Shown piece by piece: positions 47,737-56,188 of a stretch of DNA of 64,000 bases. Both the position numbers and the translations under genes were made by a program. The DNA lies in the NCBI RefSeq assembly GCF_014844035.1, contig NZ_CP062159.1, positions 1,302,001 through 1,366,000 of the forward strand, written 5' to 3'. The DNA comes from Flavobacterium sp. MDT1-60 (GTDB lineage Bacteria > Bacteroidota > Bacteroidia > Flavobacteriales > Flavobacteriaceae). Every line of letters begins with the position of its first letter. Within the stretch, counting starts at the first letter, position 1. The notes under the pieces were generated by a model. The model was not told the DNA's origin. It searched no databases and worked only from the letters and a program-made list of their open reading frames with translations.

Positions 47737-47850
47737 ATAAAAGTTGGTTTCAAAGCAATAAAAAAACAGACTGTTCGCATTCAGAAAAATAATGTGAGGA
47801 GTAACCCGAAAAGCCTTATGAGTAGGGACAACAAATCAAAAACATATATT

Positions 47851-48567
47851 ATGGCAACTTTTAGCACAACAATCAACATTAGTCCGGAAGACGTAAAAAT
47901 TTTAAAAAGTGAAGGATATTCTTTATATGGATTCAAATCAGTAGCTGCATCTGGTGATGGTTCTCCTACAGTTTGGTTTAATTTACCAGCTGAAAAATTA
48001 TTAGGGAAAACAAAAATTACTTGGGAAGAAGATTTTCAGGCTTACAATTCTACAACTACAATAGCGCCAAAAATTCAAATCGAAGCCAGTAATACTATTG
48101 ATACTGATTTAGGACAATTAATAACTATAGAAAAAGGTTCAGGTAATTTAGATTCTAGTACAGACGGTGTTGAAGGAGCTGTTTCTTTCCTTAACAACGA
48201 CAGTCAAAGATTTACAGTTGGAATTAATCAGGTGGTAAACGGAAGTTCAAATATTTTGTGTGCATTTCCAATTTTGGGAGCAGGTTCATCAAGAGTTATT
48301 ACACCTATTACAAAAATTGCTTTGATTTTTTCTACAGAACAAATCTTAACTGCAACTGTAATCACTAAAGCAATGTCTGCTGGTGCATTTATTAACCTTA
48401 CAGGTGTTACTTCACGAGATACTACTTATACTGTAAACGACGGCTGGAGCGCAGGCGGAGCTACATGGTTGAAAAACTTTAATGCTTTTACTGACTTAAA
48501 AAAGTTGTTAATTGAAAATGTAAGCTCAGAAGAAAGAGCAATTAGTGAAAAATACGCTGCAGTCTAG
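47851..48567 (+). CDS. Paralogue A of an unknown beta-rich family
   Basis: The frame opens at 47794, but ATG 47851 (MATFSTTINISPEDVKILKSEGY) is preferred and gives 238 residues. No signal peptide, no membrane helix, and no cysteine except one in the middle. It aligns along its length with the protein at 48649-49374: TINISPEDVKILKSEGYSLYGF/TINFSQETVEILNSEKYTLCCF, KITWEEDFQAYNST/LIEWEFNLCSYLST, KIALIFSTEQI/KIFLMFSSEDI, NDGWSAGGATWLKNF/NTGWNSNNQVWVKPF. Composition (Ser/Thr/Ile/Val) fits a beta-sandwich. Function unknown; not an enzyme motif I know. Confidence 0.75.
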   Translation: MATFSTTINISPEDVKILKSEGYSLYGFKSVAASGDGSPTVWFNLPAEKLLGKTKITWEEDFQAYNSTTTIAPKIQIEASNTIDTDLGQLITIEKGSGNLDSSTDGVEGAVSFLNNDSQRFTVGINQVVNGSSNILCAFPILGAGSSRVITPITKIALIFSTEQILTATVITKAMSAGAFINLTGVTSRDTTYTVNDGWSAGGATWLKNFNAFTDLKKLLIENVSSEERAISEKYAAV

Positions 48568-48586
48568 TTTATTGCATTGGGGGTTG

Positions 48587-48624
48587 AATTACTCTTCATC
48601 TTATTTGATGAAGAGTAATTTTTT
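48587..48624 (+). terminator. Terminator between the two paralogues
   Basis: AATTACTCTTCATC-6 bases-GATGAAGAGTAATT then TTTT. It separates paralogue A from B, so B is probably transcribed less, or from its own start. Confidence 0.85.
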
Positions 48625-48648
48625 ATAAATTAACTTAAATAACAATAA

Positions 48649-49374
48649 ATGAAGAATTCATTAACAATCAATTTTTCTCAGGAAACTGTAGAAATATTAA
48701 ATAGTGAAAAATATACCTTATGTTGTTTTCTCGCGTGTGAGCCTGCAAACCCTTTGTCATTTACTCCTTTATGCTGGAATGTTACTAAAGATTTTTTGAA
48801 GTCTGTTTTGATAGAATGGGAATTTAATTTATGTTCCTATTTATCTACCAGTGTAATTGAAGACAATAAAATTATATATATTGCTCCATTAGAGGCTTCA
48901 ATATCTAAGTCGACAGCTAAGTTTAAAAGTGTTGCTGGTTCAACTTATGAGATTGAACTGAAACAACGAATGTTAATTGAGGATAATGGTAAGGTTTCAA
49001 TTGATACTCAAAATACTTTACAAAATGTATTAATTCAAAATGATTCAAGTATTGCGTATGCTACGGGAATCTGTATCTACAGTAATACCGATGAACAATA
49101 CTACGGCAATTGTGTTTTTAATACTTATGGAAATAATAATATTAAAGTTGCCCCTGTCAATAAAATATTTTTAATGTTTAGTAGTGAGGATATTCAAAAT
49201 AATACTGTCATTCTTAAATCTTACAATCCAGGAATACTGATCGATTTAACTACAAGTGAAGATAATTCCCGAACCGTCTCTTATGATATTAATACTGGGT
49301 GGAATTCAAATAATCAGGTTTGGGTAAAACCATTTCCAACAGATAGCAGTCTGAAAAGTATATTAATTTCATGA
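48649..49374 (+). CDS. Paralogue B of an unknown beta-rich family
   Basis: 241 residues, no signal peptide. Same framework as paralogue A but more diverged and with five or six cysteines (CCFLACEPANP, LCWNV, LCSYL, GICIYS, YGNCVF) where A has almost none. Alignment holds best at the start and over the last 90 residues. The ATG is preceded by TAAATAACAATAA with no strong ribosome site, as usual in Bacteroidota. Role unknown. Confidence 0.7.
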   Translation: MKNSLTINFSQETVEILNSEKYTLCCFLACEPANPLSFTPLCWNVTKDFLKSVLIEWEFNLCSYLSTSVIEDNKIIYIAPLEASISKSTAKFKSVAGSTYEIELKQRMLIEDNGKVSIDTQNTLQNVLIQNDSSIAYATGICIYSNTDEQYYGNCVFNTYGNNNIKVAPVNKIFLMFSSEDIQNNTVILKSYNPGILIDLTTSEDNSRTVSYDINTGWNSNNQVWVKPFPTDSSLKSILIS

Positions 49375-51753: not shown

Positions 51754-52425
51754 ATGATGAATTATAAAGTTGAAATAAAGAATATCGATACGGTAAATGA
51801 AGTGGAAGGATATTGGTCTGAGGAAGATTTTATTCAGTTATTACAGAAATTCAATTATCCGGATGGTGCCGCAGCTGAGAAAAGTAGTTTGCCGGAATTA
51901 TTAGAAATGGCAATTTCTGATTACGAGCCTAATGAAGCTGCACAGATTGTCTTAGAATATAAATTAGGAGATCAATTAAGTGAAGGACAAATTGAGCAGA
52001 TATCAAACAATATGTTAATCGATAAGGTTTGCGAGGAATACCCTGAGATACACATGCAAGGCACATTGTTTCATGTGAATCAATTGCTTTTTAAAGCTTA
52101 TAATGGGAAATTTCCAAATGCAAAAGCGTCTGTTGTTCATTTTTCAATGACTCCAACGGATGGCGAAGCACAAAAGCTAACAGCCGAAAACGTTTTGAAA
52201 TTATTGAATAATGGTTTGTCAGATAGAAATCTTATCAAGAGATTATTCGAAACTCAAATTTCTCAGAATATTCCGTTTCCCGAAGCAGAAAGTATTATCT
52301 GGGAATTGACAACAGAAGATGATGTAAATTACAATCTGGTTACTTCAGAGAATTGGATAAATAAGGATGATGTGATAGAATCTGAATTTGAATCTATTTT
52401 GGAAGAGGTTGAAGATGAAGCTTAA
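51754..52425 (+). CDS. Acidic cytoplasmic protein of unknown function
   Basis: The 223-residue protein has no signal or membrane helix and is acidic, ending EFESILEEVEDEA. Segments such as YWSEEDFIQLLQKFNYPDGA and LLEMAISDYEPNEAAQIVLEYKLGDQLSEGQI read as helices. Not recognised. It is divergent from the M3 gene; the first two codons are both ATG. Confidence 0.7.
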   Translation: MMNYKVEIKNIDTVNEVEGYWSEEDFIQLLQKFNYPDGAAAEKSSLPELLEMAISDYEPNEAAQIVLEYKLGDQLSEGQIEQISNNMLIDKVCEEYPEIHMQGTLFHVNQLLFKAYNGKFPNAKASVVHFSMTPTDGEAQKLTAENVLKLLNNGLSDRNLIKRLFETQISQNIPFPEAESIIWELTTEDDVNYNLVTSENWINKDDVIESEFESILEEVEDEA

Positions 52426-52429
52426 TTTT

Positions 52430-52492
52430 AGTTTTCAGTCACGGTTTTCAGTCACAGTTCACACTGAAAACTGTGACTGAAAACTGAAAACT
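52430..52492. repeat. CAGTCACAGTTTTCAGT-type inverted repeat
   Basis: AGTTTTCAGTCACGGTTTTC...ACTGTGACTGAAAACTGAAA: the two ends pair over about 25 bases. The same family occurs at 63261-63317 and a fragment at 55008-55025. It sits between convergent genes and may terminate both. Confidence 0.7.
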
Positions 52493-52973
52493 ATTTCAAA
52501 CCTTCAGCCGCTTTATTAACAGCTGCTTTCAATTCTTCTTTGTATGAAATAATAGTGTCAAGTACTTTTTTATCGTGACTTCCAATAATTTGTGCTGCTA
52601 AAATCCCAGCATTTTTTGCCCCGTTTAAAGCAACTGTGGCAACCGGAACACCGCCTGGCATTTGTAGAATCGATAAAACAGAATCCCAGCCATCAATTGA
52701 ATTACTTGATTTTACAGGAACTCCAATTACAGGAAGCGGAGACATTGAAGCAACCATTCCCGGTAAATGCGCGGCACCACCTGCTCCGGCAATAATTACG
52801 GAAATACCGCGAGTATGTGCATTTTTACTGAAATCGAATAATTTTTCCGGCGTTCTGTGTGCCGAAACGATATCTACTTCAACTTCAATATTAAATTGTT
52901 TTAATATGTCGATGGCATCCTGCATGACTGGCATGTCAGAGATACTTCCCATTATGATGGCTACTTTGCTCAT
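52491..52973 (-). CDS. purE: 5-(carboxyamino)imidazole ribonucleotide mutase
   Basis: The 160-residue protein is a class I PurE: MGSISDMPVMQDAIDILKQF, the VSAHRTPEKLF motif with its catalytic His region, GAGGAAHLPGMVAS and SSNSIDGWDSVLSI, PGGVPVATVALNGAKNAGILAAQII. It moves the carboxyl group of N5-CAIR to carbon 4 in purine synthesis, downstream of PurK. In this window purK lies upstream on the same strand but 2 kb away, separated by a two-gene cassette. Confidence 0.97.
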   Translation of the reverse strand: MSKVAIIMGSISDMPVMQDAIDILKQFNIEVEVDIVSAHRTPEKLFDFSKNAHTRGISVIIAGAGGAAHLPGMVASMSPLPVIGVPVKSSNSIDGWDSVLSILQMPGGVPVATVALNGAKNAGILAAQIIGSHDKKVLDTIISYKEELKAAVNKAAEGLK

Positions 52974-53045
52974 TGTTTTTTTGTTTATTTTGGTTTCAAG
53001 TTTCAGGTCAGGTTTTTGCTGTGACTTAAAGCTATTAGATATTTT

Positions 53046-53639
53046 TTATTCTAATTCAGAAATCATATTCCAAATGTCGATTTTGAATTCTTCTTGAATT
53101 GCTCGTAAATAACAGATTGAATTAATTTCATTATCAATTTTGTCTTGAAAATATTTTTTTATTTCTATATCAGTTTGAAGCTTTCTGTCATTTATTGATT
53201 CCCTTCTTCGTTTGATATAATTTTTTCTATCTTCTACTCTTTTTTGATTATTTAAGTCTAATAGAATGATTAGGTTATTTGCTTCATCGTCATTAGGTTT
53301 TGCAAAATATTCACCTTCATCATAGATAATTCTACTTTCAAAATCATCGGCATAAGGCATTAATATTGGCTCAATCCAACTATTAGTTTTTCTTTGATTT
53401 GGAAGGTGTTTGACTTTATACCAATTATAATAATTATCTTCTGGTTGGTCTTTTAAATTTGGATTAAAATGCTCAGTGTCATTTGCATCATCAAATCCAA
53501 TATAATGTTCTGTATAAGCACAAAATCCTTTTTGTTCTTTTAAAAGAAGAGAACCTAATTTAGAATTATCTCCCTTAGATTTATAAATGATCTTATCAGA
53601 AATAATTAGAGAAAGCGGAGATTTTAAAACTCTTTTCAT
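53046..53639 (-). CDS. HNH-type nuclease, PtuB-like
   Basis: The 197-residue protein has an HNH-like core: EQKGFCAYTEHYI (Cys40), NDTEHFNP (Glu56-His57) and YYNWYKVKHL (Asn72), the order seen in TIGR02646/PtuB proteins that accompany AAA ATPases; the second Cys of the usual C-x-x-C is a Thr, so a metal finger is weak or absent. The C-terminal half is helical and basic (KNYIKRRRESINDRKLQ). It starts 3 bases after the ATPase stop, so they form one operon. In Septu systems, PtuB cleaves DNA or RNA during phage infection (known for the family; not shown here). Confidence 0.8.
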   Translation of the reverse strand: MKRVLKSPLSLIISDKIIYKSKGDNSKLGSLLLKEQKGFCAYTEHYIGFDDANDTEHFNPNLKDQPEDNYYNWYKVKHLPNQRKTNSWIEPILMPYADDFESRIIYDEGEYFAKPNDDEANNLIILLDLNNQKRVEDRKNYIKRRRESINDRKLQTDIEIKKYFQDKIDNEINSICYLRAIQEEFKIDIWNMISELE

Positions 53640-53642
53640 TCA

Positions 53643-54962
53643 TTAAAAATTATACTTATCTCCAATAGATTCAATTTCATCTTGAAGTTTTTGTTTTACT
53701 TCTTCATTTTCTTCAAACAGCAATTGTCTTCTTTTTTCAAGATATTCATTATATATTTTTTTGCCATATTTGTTTATATAATCAATTCCAAAATCATTAT
53801 CAAGCATATCGTTTGGATCATCTCCAATAGGAGAAGTTCCTCTGCGGACAGCCACTTTTCCATCTTTATCAAAATATAAAATAAATCTTTCTTCTGGTTC
53901 AAATGAAGCAGCTACAAATGGAGAATGGGTTGCGGTAATAAACTGCGCTTCTGGAGCAAGTCTTTTATAATAATCCATTACTTCCATCTGAATATTTGGA
54001 TATAATGAGCGTTCAGGTTCATCTATTAAAATTAGTGAACCTTTAGTTTCTAATGAATATAAGGGTAAAGATGTCAACAGAAGTTGTTTTGTTCCAGTAC
54101 TTGTGTCTTGAAACGGAATAATTTCTTCTCTTCCTTTGTTTTTTATTGGTATTGAATATTCGGTATTTACAAGGTCAACCTCTAAATTTAAATGTTCTAA
54201 AATATAATTAAACTCCTTTGTAAACGACTCTAATCTGTTTGGATTATCCTTTTGCCATTTGTTAAATTCTAAACTTAATTTATTTACATCATTAATGAAA
54301 CCTTTGTGGATTAATTCAGACATTTTTTGAGTAAAGTTTTTTCGGTAATTTAGATAATCTACTAACAGATGAAGCCAAATTTTCGTGTCCACATTGTCAT
54401 TAAATAATAAACCATAATTTTCTTCCATTAAAAAAAGGTTATCTCTCTCTTCAAATTCCTTTTTAATAGCTTGAAGTTCGTTACTATGTTTTTCTATTAA
54501 TTCGATTGGATTAGTTGAAAGAAAATTTATGTTTTGATCGGATACTAAATTCGCTTTAAAGTAAAAAATATCTTTTTTATCTTGTTTTGGAATTAAACTT
54601 GTTACTTGTCCACCTCCGCTATTAAAATCATTTCGATAAACACGGTTTTTGAAAGAAACTTCGTTGTTTTTTAAATGAAAAATATCATTTTCTATTAAAA
54701 AGGTAACTTCACTTTTATTTAGATTATTTTTTAATCTGAATATTTGACCGTTTATGAGTTCTAAATTTAAAAGATTAATAGAATGATCATAAATCAATTG
54801 TAACAATCCAGTTTTACCCGTAGCACTTTGCCCAATAAAACATATTTTATCTAAAGGCTTTCCTCTTTTTTCTTCAATATGGAAATCTTCAGGATATGTA
54901 AAATCAAAATCTAGATTTTCTAAATGCCTAAACTGATCGATATGTAATTTTGAAATTTTCAT
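53643..54962 (-). CDS. AAA15/OLD-type ATPase, PtuA-like
   Basis: The 439-residue protein has the SMC-like ATPase plan: N-terminal KISKLHIDQFRHLENLDFDF, Walker A GQSATGKT (44-51), a long middle region with few motifs, then STGTKQLLLTSLPLY (signature-like), Walker B SLILIDEPERSLYPNIQ and the FITATHSPFVAAS switch. This is the layout of PtuA and related anti-phage ATPases. No TOPRIM nuclease domain follows, unlike OLD proteins; instead an HNH gene is attached. The pair sits between purE and purK. Confidence 0.82.
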   Translation of the reverse strand: MKISKLHIDQFRHLENLDFDFTYPEDFHIEEKRGKPLDKICFIGQSATGKTGLLQLIYDHSINLLNLELINGQIFRLKNNLNKSEVTFLIENDIFHLKNNEVSFKNRVYRNDFNSGGGQVTSLIPKQDKKDIFYFKANLVSDQNINFLSTNPIELIEKHSNELQAIKKEFEERDNLFLMEENYGLLFNDNVDTKIWLHLLVDYLNYRKNFTQKMSELIHKGFINDVNKLSLEFNKWQKDNPNRLESFTKEFNYILEHLNLEVDLVNTEYSIPIKNKGREEIIPFQDTSTGTKQLLLTSLPLYSLETKGSLILIDEPERSLYPNIQMEVMDYYKRLAPEAQFITATHSPFVAASFEPEERFILYFDKDGKVAVRRGTSPIGDDPNDMLDNDFGIDYINKYGKKIYNEYLEKRRQLLFEENEEVKQKLQDEIESIGDKYNF

Positions 54963-54976
54963 TTATTGATTTTTTA

Positions 54977-54984
54977 CAAATCTA
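54977..54984 (-). promoter_or_regulatory. Possible -7 element for the PtuAB-like pair
   Basis: Minus strand TAGATTTG fits TAnnTTTG, 14 bases upstream of the ATPase ATG; no clear -33 partner at 19 bases. Would allow the cassette to be expressed apart from purK. Confidence 0.35.
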
Positions 54985-55030
54985 ATTAAAAAATGATTGC
55001 TATTGTAAACTGCGACTGCGACTGATCTAA

Positions 55031-56188
55031 TTACTGACCACTAATCACTCTAATAGTATTCTTAACTTCCTCAGCAATTCTTCTCGCTTCTTGCATATCT
55101 TCATTTACAATTGTAACGTGACCCATTTTTCTGAAAGGTCTTGTTTGTTTTTTACCGTAAATATGGGGAGTAACGCCGTTCCATCCTAAAATGGTTTCTA
55201 TGTTTTCATAAACGACATCTCCGGAAAAACCTTCGGCACCCACTAAATTTACCATAACTCCTGCAACTTTGCTGTCTGTGTTTCCTAACGGAAGATCCAG
55301 AATAGCGCGTAAATGATTTTCGAATTGAGAAGTATAACTTGCTTCAATAGAATAATGACCAGAATTGTGTGGGCGAGGAGCAACTTCGTTTACTAAGATT
55401 TCATCATCATTGGTTTGAAACATCTCAACTGCTAAAAGTCCAACGTGATTGAATTTCTCCGAAACATTCAAAGCAATTGCTCTGGCTTTTTCAGCGACTT
55501 TTTCGTCGATTCTTGCCGGGCAAATTACATATTCTACCTGGTTGGCTTCCGGATGAAATTCCATTTCAACAACCGGATAGGTTTTTATTTCTCCTGATGG
55601 ATTTCTGCAAACGATAACTGCCAATTCATTTTTGTATGGTACCATAGTTTCCGCAATACATTCTACATTTGGTAAATCATCCATGTCAGAAATCTGGCGA
55701 ATCACTTTTACACCATTTCCGTCATAACCAAATTCGGTGCATTTCCAGACAAACGGAATTGTAATTTCATTGTTTCCAACCGATTTTTGCAAATGCTCCG
55801 GACTGTCAAATCGTAAATATGCGGCCGTTGGGATATTGCTTGCTGTATAAAAATCTTTTTGAGTTCCTTTATTTTGAATTCCTTTTAAGGTTTTTGGAGA
55901 CGGATACACTTTTACACCTTCATTTTCTAATTGCGTTAAAGCTTCAAGATTTACGAGTTCAATTTCGAAAGTCAAAACATCAACTTGTTTTCCAAAATTG
56001 TAAACCGTTTCATAATCCATTAAATCACCCTGAAAGAATTTGTTACAGGCAATTTTACTTGGAGCTTCGTCACTCGGATCTAAAACGTAAGTTTGTATGT
56101 CAAATTTTCGCGTGTCAAACAATAGCATTTTGCCTAGTTGTCCACCGCCTAATATTCCTAATTTAAAATCAGAAGAAAAATAATTCAT
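55031..56188 (-). CDS. purK: N5-carboxyaminoimidazole ribonucleotide synthase
   Basis: The 385-residue protein is an ATP-grasp enzyme: N-terminal LGILGGGQLGKMLLFDTRKF, central GIQNKGTQKDFYTASNIPTA and FVWKCTEFGYDGNGV, then VAPRPHNSGHYSIEASYTSQFE and the C-terminal GKKQTRPFRKMGHVTIV. It makes N5-CAIR from AIR, ATP and bicarbonate, the substrate of PurE. It has its own promoter of nearly perfect Bacteroidota type. Usually adjacent to purE; here 2 kb apart. Confidence 0.96.
   Translation of the reverse strand: MNYFSSDFKLGILGGGQLGKMLLFDTRKFDIQTYVLDPSDEAPSKIACNKFFQGDLMDYETVYNFGKQVDVLTFEIELVNLEALTQLENEGVKVYPSPKTLKGIQNKGTQKDFYTASNIPTAAYLRFDSPEHLQKSVGNNEITIPFVWKCTEFGYDGNGVKVIRQISDMDDLPNVECIAETMVPYKNELAVIVCRNPSGEIKTYPVVEMEFHPEANQVEYVICPARIDEKVAEKARAIALNVSEKFNHVGLLAVEMFQTNDDEILVNEVAPRPHNSGHYSIEASYTSQFENHLRAILDLPLGNTDSKVAGVMVNLVGAEGFSGDVVYENIETILGWNGVTPHIYGKKQTRPFRKMGHVTIVNEDMQEARRIAEEVKNTIRVISGQ

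Follow-up and report, generated by a model that had tools for sequence, protein, structure and literature searches.

A Septu-type ptuAB pair with mosaic alleles in the purK-purE spacer of Flavobacterium and related genera

The carriers usually assumed for defence genes are phages, plasmids and integrative islands. Within the Septu family, PtuA-PtuB of E. coli is listed in a review as a degrader of phage genomes (PMC12948488), and the available portions of two further reports describe Septu EcB88 as cutting tRNA-Tyr in its variable loop upon infection (PMC13096335) and the PtuAB of retron-Eco7 as depleting tRNA-Tyr (PMC11555353). Mutation of Walker A or Walker B (K43 or D316), or of the HNH motif (H75 or N91), is reported to abolish defence by EcB88 (PMC13096335). 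Between core genes of E. coli, defence hotspots are described as having a median occupancy of 8% per hotspot and as being filled mostly by integrative elements (PMC10121019); these accounts, too, are drawn from the available portions of their sources. Here we examine a Septu-type pair, ptuA and ptuB, in 64,000 nucleotides of Flavobacterium sp. MDT1-60 (NZ_CP062159.1, positions 1,302,001 to 1,366,000 of the forward strand; this whole stretch is hereafter the window), where it lies between purK and purE. We hold with good confidence that ptuAB is a Septu type I module at a fixed purK-purE spacer, where it is often gained, lost and replaced, piecewise and by homologous recombination, and that its PtuA most likely senses infection and releases the PtuB nuclease.

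On the minus strand of the window the order is purK, ptuA, ptuB, purE, a 3-base gap separating the middle two (Table 1). A preliminary description of this DNA, made from the sequence alone, had placed two minus-strand open reading frames 3 bases apart between purE and purK and had listed the motifs GQSATGKT, LILIDEPERSLYPN, CAYTEH, DTEHF and YYNW; the coordinates are right and all five motifs are found in the two proteins. Its proposal of a Septu-type PtuA/PtuB pair lacking a retron reverse transcriptase has also held. The ptuA product matches the PADLOC model PtuA1 (PDLC00274) at an E-value (E) of 6.4e-165 over positions 2-438 of 438, the ptuB product matches PtuB1 (PDLC00347) at E 2.2e-89 over positions 1-194 of 195, and the reverse transcriptase family PF00078 has no match in the whole 5.56 Mb genome, in a search whose control was positive in 3 of 14 genomes. 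A retron of type I-A is ruled out by the same result. Pfam assigns AAA_21 and AAA_15 to PtuA and, below threshold, HNH_4 alone to PtuB. By sequence, the best match to PtuA in the PDB is E. coli PtuA (8ee4, E 1.3e-6).

Structure models were built from alignments of 37 PtuBs and 40 PtuAs (those of the window and of chosen loci among the 80 introduced below), and reached a mean predicted local distance difference test score of 94.5 for PtuB and 88.0 for PtuA. The top five PDB matches in the PtuB fold search are all retron PtuB chains (best E 3.8e-4, template modelling (TM) score 0.53-0.65), the best being PtuB of retron Ec78 (9u9y_H, E 3.8e-4, TM 0.62; 9nnb_J, TM 0.65). The PtuA model matches PtuA of retrons Ec83 and Ec78/Eco7 and of E. 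coli Septu (9e8z_C, E 1.4e-13; 8ee4_E, TM 0.52), with PtuA in most of the 50 matches listed, at TM 0.36-0.52. With TM scores near 0.5 and identities of 13-17%, the folds are thus related and much changed, not identical. Active-site residues are strictly conserved. The motif residues of PtuA (full-length numbering) are K50 of Walker A, the signature STGT at 288-291, D314/E315 of Walker B, and H346, and 40 of 40 PtuAs in the alignment keep those of the two Walker motifs and the signature without change; H57 and N72 of PtuB, likely the H and N of the HNH motif, are invariant in 37 of 37. The four-cysteine finger around HNH, which we take to be a feature of TIGR02646-type proteins, is not found in these PtuBs and was not treated as defining for Septu: at the CxYC position stands CxYT in 34 of the 37 and CxYS in 3, and the proteins hold one Cys (21 of 37), two (12), three (2) or four (2), so that the zinc finger has probably gone from PtuB. 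The finger Thr, offered in the preliminary description as the mark of a divergent copy, is therefore a rule of the subfamily, and a peculiarity of the window copy is ruled out; the private change of the window PtuB is T55, at which the others have I (34 of 37) or V (2 of 37). Having the ATPase motifs of PtuA, an adjoining HNH-bearing PtuB and the PtuA/PtuB fold, the window pair is, as judged from its sequences and predicted structures, a two-gene Septu type I module.

Table 1. Features of the ptuAB locus in the window, and the location of distant relatives in other genomes
Feature	Position or loci	Strand or orientation	Basis
purK	55031..56188	(-)	upstream flank; Pfam PF02222, PF22660, PF17769 (ATP-grasp/PurK_C)
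left remnant of ordinary purK-purE spacer	55002..55030	(-)	empty sites G083, G108, G077 and G015 align here; homology runs out at 54991-55002
cassette leader	54963..55001	(-)	promoter-like TAGATTTG (TAnnTTTG) at 54977-54984
ptuA, SMC/ABC-like ATPase, 439 aa	53643..54962	(-)	PADLOC PtuA1 PDLC00274, invariant motifs, fold match
ptuB, HNH nuclease, 197 aa	53046..53639	(-)	PADLOC PtuB1 PDLC00347, H57/N72 invariant, fold match
right remnant of ordinary spacer	52974..53045	(-)	begins at ptuB stop codon; aligns to empty sites
purE	52491..52973	(-)	downstream flank; Pfam AIRC PF00731, 211 bits
GH3-dxr loci	L081, L084-L090, L092-L094, L098	co-oriented	Spirosoma, Larkinella, Fibrella, Arsenicibacter, a bin

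The site of the pair is the same across genera. At a threshold of E<=1e-20, relatives of PtuA occur in 10 of 150 Flavobacterium genomes, the present one included, and 8 of the 10 lie between purK and purE (those of G132 and G102 do not). A scan of 84,980 species genomes gave 115 relatives, 80 of which were kept; in 31 of these 80 loci, which overlap in part with the genomes of the genus scan (e.g. L044=G091, L057=G079), the order is purK-ptuA-ptuB-purE on a single strand. PtuA identity is at least 44% in 40 of the 80, and 33 of those 40 are of Flavobacteriales type, comprising Flavobacterium, Tenacibaculum, uncultured Flavobacteriaceae, one Chryseobacterium and a bin under the label Limnohabitans with Flavobacterium-like purK and purE. 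The purK-purE location is shared by 31 of these 33 loci, Tenacibaculum included; the two exceptions carry co-oriented ptuAB between a ribB-type gene and pepT (L055, F. aurantiibacter) and between pgi and a folD-like gene that falls below model cut-offs (L076, Chryseobacterium). In all 32 complete loci (the 31 and the window) ptuAB is co-oriented with purK-purE. Three distant relatives labelled Flavobacteriaceae (L105, L114, L120; PtuA identity 31-34%) show neither purK nor purE in the DNA examined.

Occupancy of this site is patchy. Within the genus, purK leads into purE on one strand in 144 of 144 same-contig pairs (two pairs each from G048 and G145), across a gap with a median of 101.5 bp that measures at most 330 bp in 113 pairs, 330-1000 bp in 22 and more than 1500 bp in 9; ptuAB occupies 8 of the 144 spacers, and thereby 8 of the 9 longest gaps. 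The comparison of spacing bears out the earlier proposal that the pair was inserted between purE and purK, whose spacer is short in the genus. Fixed presence across the genus, which would have spoken against a mobile cassette, is excluded (8 of 144 spacers), but ptuAB is no ordinary mobile cassette that lands anywhere either, since 31 of 33 loci share one site. On a tree of purE+purK DNA with 43 near rows (26 without and 17 with ptuAB, the carriers having been added deliberately), the distribution of ptuAB takes a minimum of 11 changes, and well-supported branches force 8 of these; the mean for shuffled labels is 13.6, with 49-50 of 500 shuffles reaching a count as low as the real one, so that presence is hardly clustered.

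Borders of the insert were drawn by pairwise alignment with the four empty spacers named in Table 1. Homology stops at 54991-55002 on the purK side and resumes at 53045-53048 in three of the four alignments and at 53019 in the other, leaving an insert of ~1.95 kb that consists of a leader of ~40 bases, then ptuA, then ptuB through its stop codon. Each remnant of the ordinary spacer contains one of the two dispersed-repeat fragments that had been read as a sign of mobility; the fragments are present, but they are host spacer, matched in the empty spacers of relatives, and as mobility marks they are ruled out. The leader motif TAnnTTTG, which we take to be the Bacteroidota -7 promoter element, starts 21-25 bases upstream of ptuA in 28 of the 32 purK-ptuAB-purE loci (at -22 in 22), is missing in three Tenacibaculum loci and is one base short in L064. 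A sigma-70 scan found 14 promoter-like sites where shuffles gave 17.3, and between ptuB and purE no terminator-like site was found. At the cassette there is no integrase, and element ends of an integrase-borne island are not evident. Comparison with empty sites makes no target duplication evident, in a spacer too variable to show one of a few bases; terminal inverted repeats are not evident either, the repeats found lying mostly inside the AT-rich genes. Searches for carriage gave no phage record and no confirmed viral contig; among plasmids they gave three partial and distant ATPase matches covering 15-34%, none of full length.

Other small genes live in the same spacer. Among all 23 genus spacers that exceed 330 bp and are without ptuAB, a toxin of MazF/PemK type, paired with a small partner, occurs in G146, G025 and G028 (by Pfam in G146 and G025) and a ParE toxin with a partner in G027 and G084; these toxin pairs (L124, L127, L128, L129 and L131, respectively) run in the direction of the operon. 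A partner-like open reading frame without toxin is present in G107 and G022, the latter with further frames, and sub-threshold matches to AbiU2 and T5orf172 were obtained for G139 and G048, respectively. A redoxin-like protein is found in three spacers, tested with Pfam in G065 and judged by resemblance in G037 and G132. Eleven others hold short frames of 66-101 aa, of which the one tested (G096) has no Pfam match. PADLOC gave 0 matches among the 8 spacer proteins tested. The loci in which a redoxin-like gene shares or occupies the purK-purE spacer are L126 (the only one tested), L123, L125 and L134; in G097 the gene lies between purK and ptuA. Several unrelated small modules in one spacer are what would be expected of an unrecognised integrative vehicle that prefers it, delivers such modules and leaves no trace; we regard such a vehicle as improbable, since neither an integrase nor a target duplication nor terminal repeats are evident, and no phage record, confirmed viral contig or full-length plasmid match was found.

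The alleles themselves are mosaics. Across the 32 complete loci, purK and purE correlate closely in pairwise protein distance (Spearman 0.91), purK does not with ptuA (0.05) or ptuB (-0.05), and ptuA and ptuB do so modestly (0.38). Resolved by segment in Mantel tests with 299 permutations (full-length numbering), PtuA 1-60 follows purK (0.59, p 0.003) and not ptuB (0.04); the segments of PtuA 61-360 follow purK nowhere significantly (-0.12 to 0.14) and ptuB weakly (0.08-0.22); PtuA 396-420 and 421-439 follow ptuB (0.84 and 0.59). Residues 1-180 of PtuB do not follow purK, and its last 17 (181-197) do (0.36, p 0.003). Trees place the window PtuA with L042 (100/100) and the window PtuB with L062 and L064 (100/99). 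In approximately unbiased (AU) tests, ptuA (p 0.007) and purK+purE (1.4e-4) both reject the group of window, L062 and L064; ptuB rejects the ptuA clade of window and L042 (3e-80), and purK+purE does not (0.24); a seven-member host clade is rejected on both ptuA (6.8e-45) and ptuB (8.2e-6).

DNA identity in sliding windows of 100 bases traces the same pattern along the genes. Compared with L042, the window allele is 72-95% identical through ptuA to codon 383, then 55-76% to late ptuB and 80% at the end of ptuB; compared with L062 and L064, identity is 40-57% at codons 83-258 of ptuA, 89-95% at codons 383-433, 77-91% throughout ptuB and 69-75% at its last codons. The switch thus lies near PtuA codon 383-408. 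Synonymous divergence over the last 55 codons of ptuA is 0.19 from L062, against 1.59 in purK, and 0.32 from L064, against 0.91; over the first 58 codons it is 0.81 from L042, against 0.83 in purK. Ratios of non-synonymous to synonymous substitution of ~0.07 (L062) and ~0.09 (L064) for ptuB and 0.13 (L042) for ptuA speak, on these three pairs, for purifying selection on both genes.

Vertical descent without exchange is rejected by the conflict among trees together with the AU tests. In its fullest form it would have the pair enter once in the ancestor of the Flavobacteriaceae, evolve fast and be lost many times without ever being exchanged, and it can appeal to the site and orientation shared by Flavobacterium and Tenacibaculum, to the grouping of the three Tenacibaculum copies as a single clade on purK+purE, on ptuA and on ptuB alike, and to the way in which PtuA 1-60 tracks purK. 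It is nonetheless unlikely, as the host clade is rejected on ptuA and ptuB, the trees of the two genes conflict with each other, and the PtuA tail of window and L062 is far less diverged at synonymous sites than their purK. One ancient entry followed by exchange may have occurred, and would be compatible with the recombining module proposed here.

In the explanation that we prefer, PtuA most likely senses infection, holding PtuB and then releasing it, and the released PtuB would cut nucleic acid, either phage DNA or host tRNA after the example of the E. coli relatives, halting phage growth; defence activity is what we infer from these relatives. The conserved ATPase core would drive a switch, and the variable middle of PtuA, under pressure from phage, would take part in recognition. 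The tail may be the dock for PtuB, because tail and PtuB change together. Recombination in purK or purE could carry the cassette into an empty spacer with no need of a vehicle, and recombination in conserved stretches of the cassette could replace parts of a resident copy, the middle of PtuA (~61-360) being exchanged separately from its tail and PtuB. An integrase appears less likely than homologous recombination through the pur genes and these conserved stretches. We would give about even chances to a further step, that the spacer is a dedicated site of immunity allele exchange in Flavobacteriaceae, with anchors at the start of PtuA, at PtuA 361-395 and at the end of PtuB, where the recognition part (PtuA ~61-360) is re-paired with the effector part (PtuA tail and PtuB) without a mobile element, and that a distant branch may have a second such site between a GH3-family gene and dxr. 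On that step, ptuAB would be reshuffled in the manner of type I restriction specificity.

Several observations weigh against this account. The PADLOC PtuA1/PtuB1 models may have been derived from this same group, so that their scores are no independent proof of defence. Of the profile check that had been suggested, the full-length PADLOC matches are the positive half; NCBIfam scores stay far under cut-off (PtuA 42.5 of 500 bits, PtuB 28.5 of 150), as does TIGR02646 for PtuB (21.2 of 52.15 bits), which marks this branch as distant from the retron branch. Searched against PDB sequences, PtuB has no significant match (best E 0.045, a retron PtuB), and chains of AriA are likewise among the fold matches of PtuA. 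Seven further loci with PtuA identity of at least 44% are off purK-purE, in Chitinophagaceae (L068, L070, L071, L072, L079, L083) and Rudanella (L096, a partial contig), none with purK or purE in the DNA examined. Genome G042 (L004:2780-3495), a carrier among the eight of the genus, has a frameshifted ptuB beside an intact ptuA. PtuA 361-395 tracks host (0.35) and ptuB (0.36) alike, making the module borders approximate, and the first 58 codons of ptuA diverge less from L067 at synonymous sites than purK does (0.36 against 0.92), so that the start of ptuA is not purely vertical and has been exchanged at times. Groups for the AU tests were chosen after the trees had been seen, recombination is deduced from trees and identity, and 'hotspot' is used here as a description of this one spacer.

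Outside the purK-purE loci, neighbours were compared for 23 of the 80 loci (the other 26, e.g. Cytophagales L096, L109, L112 and L115-L118, were left out). Distant ptuAB, with PtuA identities of 33-37%, occupies the gap from a GH3-family gene to dxr in 12 loci of Cytophagales, co-oriented in all (Table 1), and GH3-dxr is thus a second fixed core-gene site of the distant branch in that order. A further small open reading frame stands within the gap in 5 of the 12. Gene names were checked on L084 alone, where dxr scores above cut-off, GH3 is assigned by Pfam and OlsH is below cut-off. In L081 a nucleotidyltransferase-domain gene (PF01909), with a relative in L093, shares the gap with ptuAB and is possibly half of a toxin-antitoxin pair. 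Elsewhere in the window, a palindrome-like stretch (gttttcagtcacagttcacactgaaaactgtgactgaaaac) lies at 52430-52485, between purE and the converging gene at 51754-52425, and two adjoining plus-strand genes at 47794-49374, similar by eye (257 and 241 aa), belong to no Pfam family.

Two further explanations fare worst. Septu is restrained by ATP, and ptuAB might accordingly sit in a purine operon for its activity or expression to follow the level of purine nucleotides; strict co-orientation within purK-purE in 32 of 32 complete loci and a ptuB-purE gap in which no terminator-like site was found would fit, yet this coupling is very unlikely when most spacers of the genus are without ptuAB, a promoter-like motif belongs to the cassette itself (28 of 32), the spacer also takes modules of other types, and other members at GH3-dxr, pgi-folD and ribB-pepT have no common purine theme. 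That the HNH protein and ATPase form a selfish homing element, cutting empty spacer alleles and being copied in by repair with defence as a secondary trait, would suit an HNH nuclease of patchy presence whose precise single-site insert is two genes and a leader alone, but is highly improbable, as homing would then have to target non-coding spacer DNA that changes fast, the wider family has members at quite different sites, in other genomes this spacer is taken by unrelated genes for toxins and redoxins, and the E. coli relative is reported, in the available portion of its source, to act against phage (PMC13096335).

The PtuA/PtuB family and core-gene defence hotspots are already known; the behaviour of the purK-purE locus was not found in print. 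Literature searches, with most subscription papers outside their scope, returned no paper linking purK and Septu; a search for purE/purK as a defence hotspot was of little use, 'pure' swamping the results; one for a Septu integration site in Flavobacteri- gave nothing on Flavobacterium, judged by listing; purK with toxin-antitoxin, Flavobacteri- and phage gave only unrelated papers, judged by listing; and searches on PtuAB structure and ATP added no more, again by listing. If the proposed account is true, a two-gene system is kept at one core-operon spacer across genera and re-paired in place, a renewal of immunity that needs no vehicle, in which the variable middle of PtuA would set the phages that are recognised and its tail the PtuB that is compatible. 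The 32 complete loci amount to a natural allele collection at a single site.

Set beside known systems, the window pair resembles E. coli Septu (8ee4, 8eea) and Septu EcB88 (PMC13096335) in its adjoining ptuA-ptuB, its ABC/SMC-like ATPase with HNH partner, its lack of a reverse transcriptase and its fold match. The residues whose mutation is reported to abolish EcB88 defence (K of Walker A, D of Walker B, H and N of the HNH motif) have invariant counterparts in the window subfamily, paired by motif and not by alignment, and the H57-N72 spacing of the window PtuB resembles that of H75-N91. Set against E. coli Septu and EcB88, the differences are an identity of 13-17% in the fold alignments, a PtuB without CxxC, a fixed site in a housekeeping operon and mosaic alleles. 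The PtuAB effectors of retrons Ec78/Eco7 and Ec83 are the nearest solved structures (9u9y_H and 9nnb_J for PtuB, 9e8z_C for PtuA); unlike Ec78 retrons, the window genome has no PF00078 match, and its pair scores far under the NCBIfam cut-offs for PtuA and PtuB. Hotspots of E. coli (PMC10121019) and Pseudomonas aeruginosa (PMC10250203), as portrayed in the available portions of these papers, share with purK-purE a variable defence content between fixed core genes, and the median occupancy of 8% in E. coli may be set against ptuAB in 8 of 144 spacers. What distinguishes purK-purE from them, as far as those portions describe them, is a spacer of ~100 bp in which no integrases or larger elements are seen, and which holds two-gene modules, with mosaic ptuAB alleles that have probably been replaced in place.

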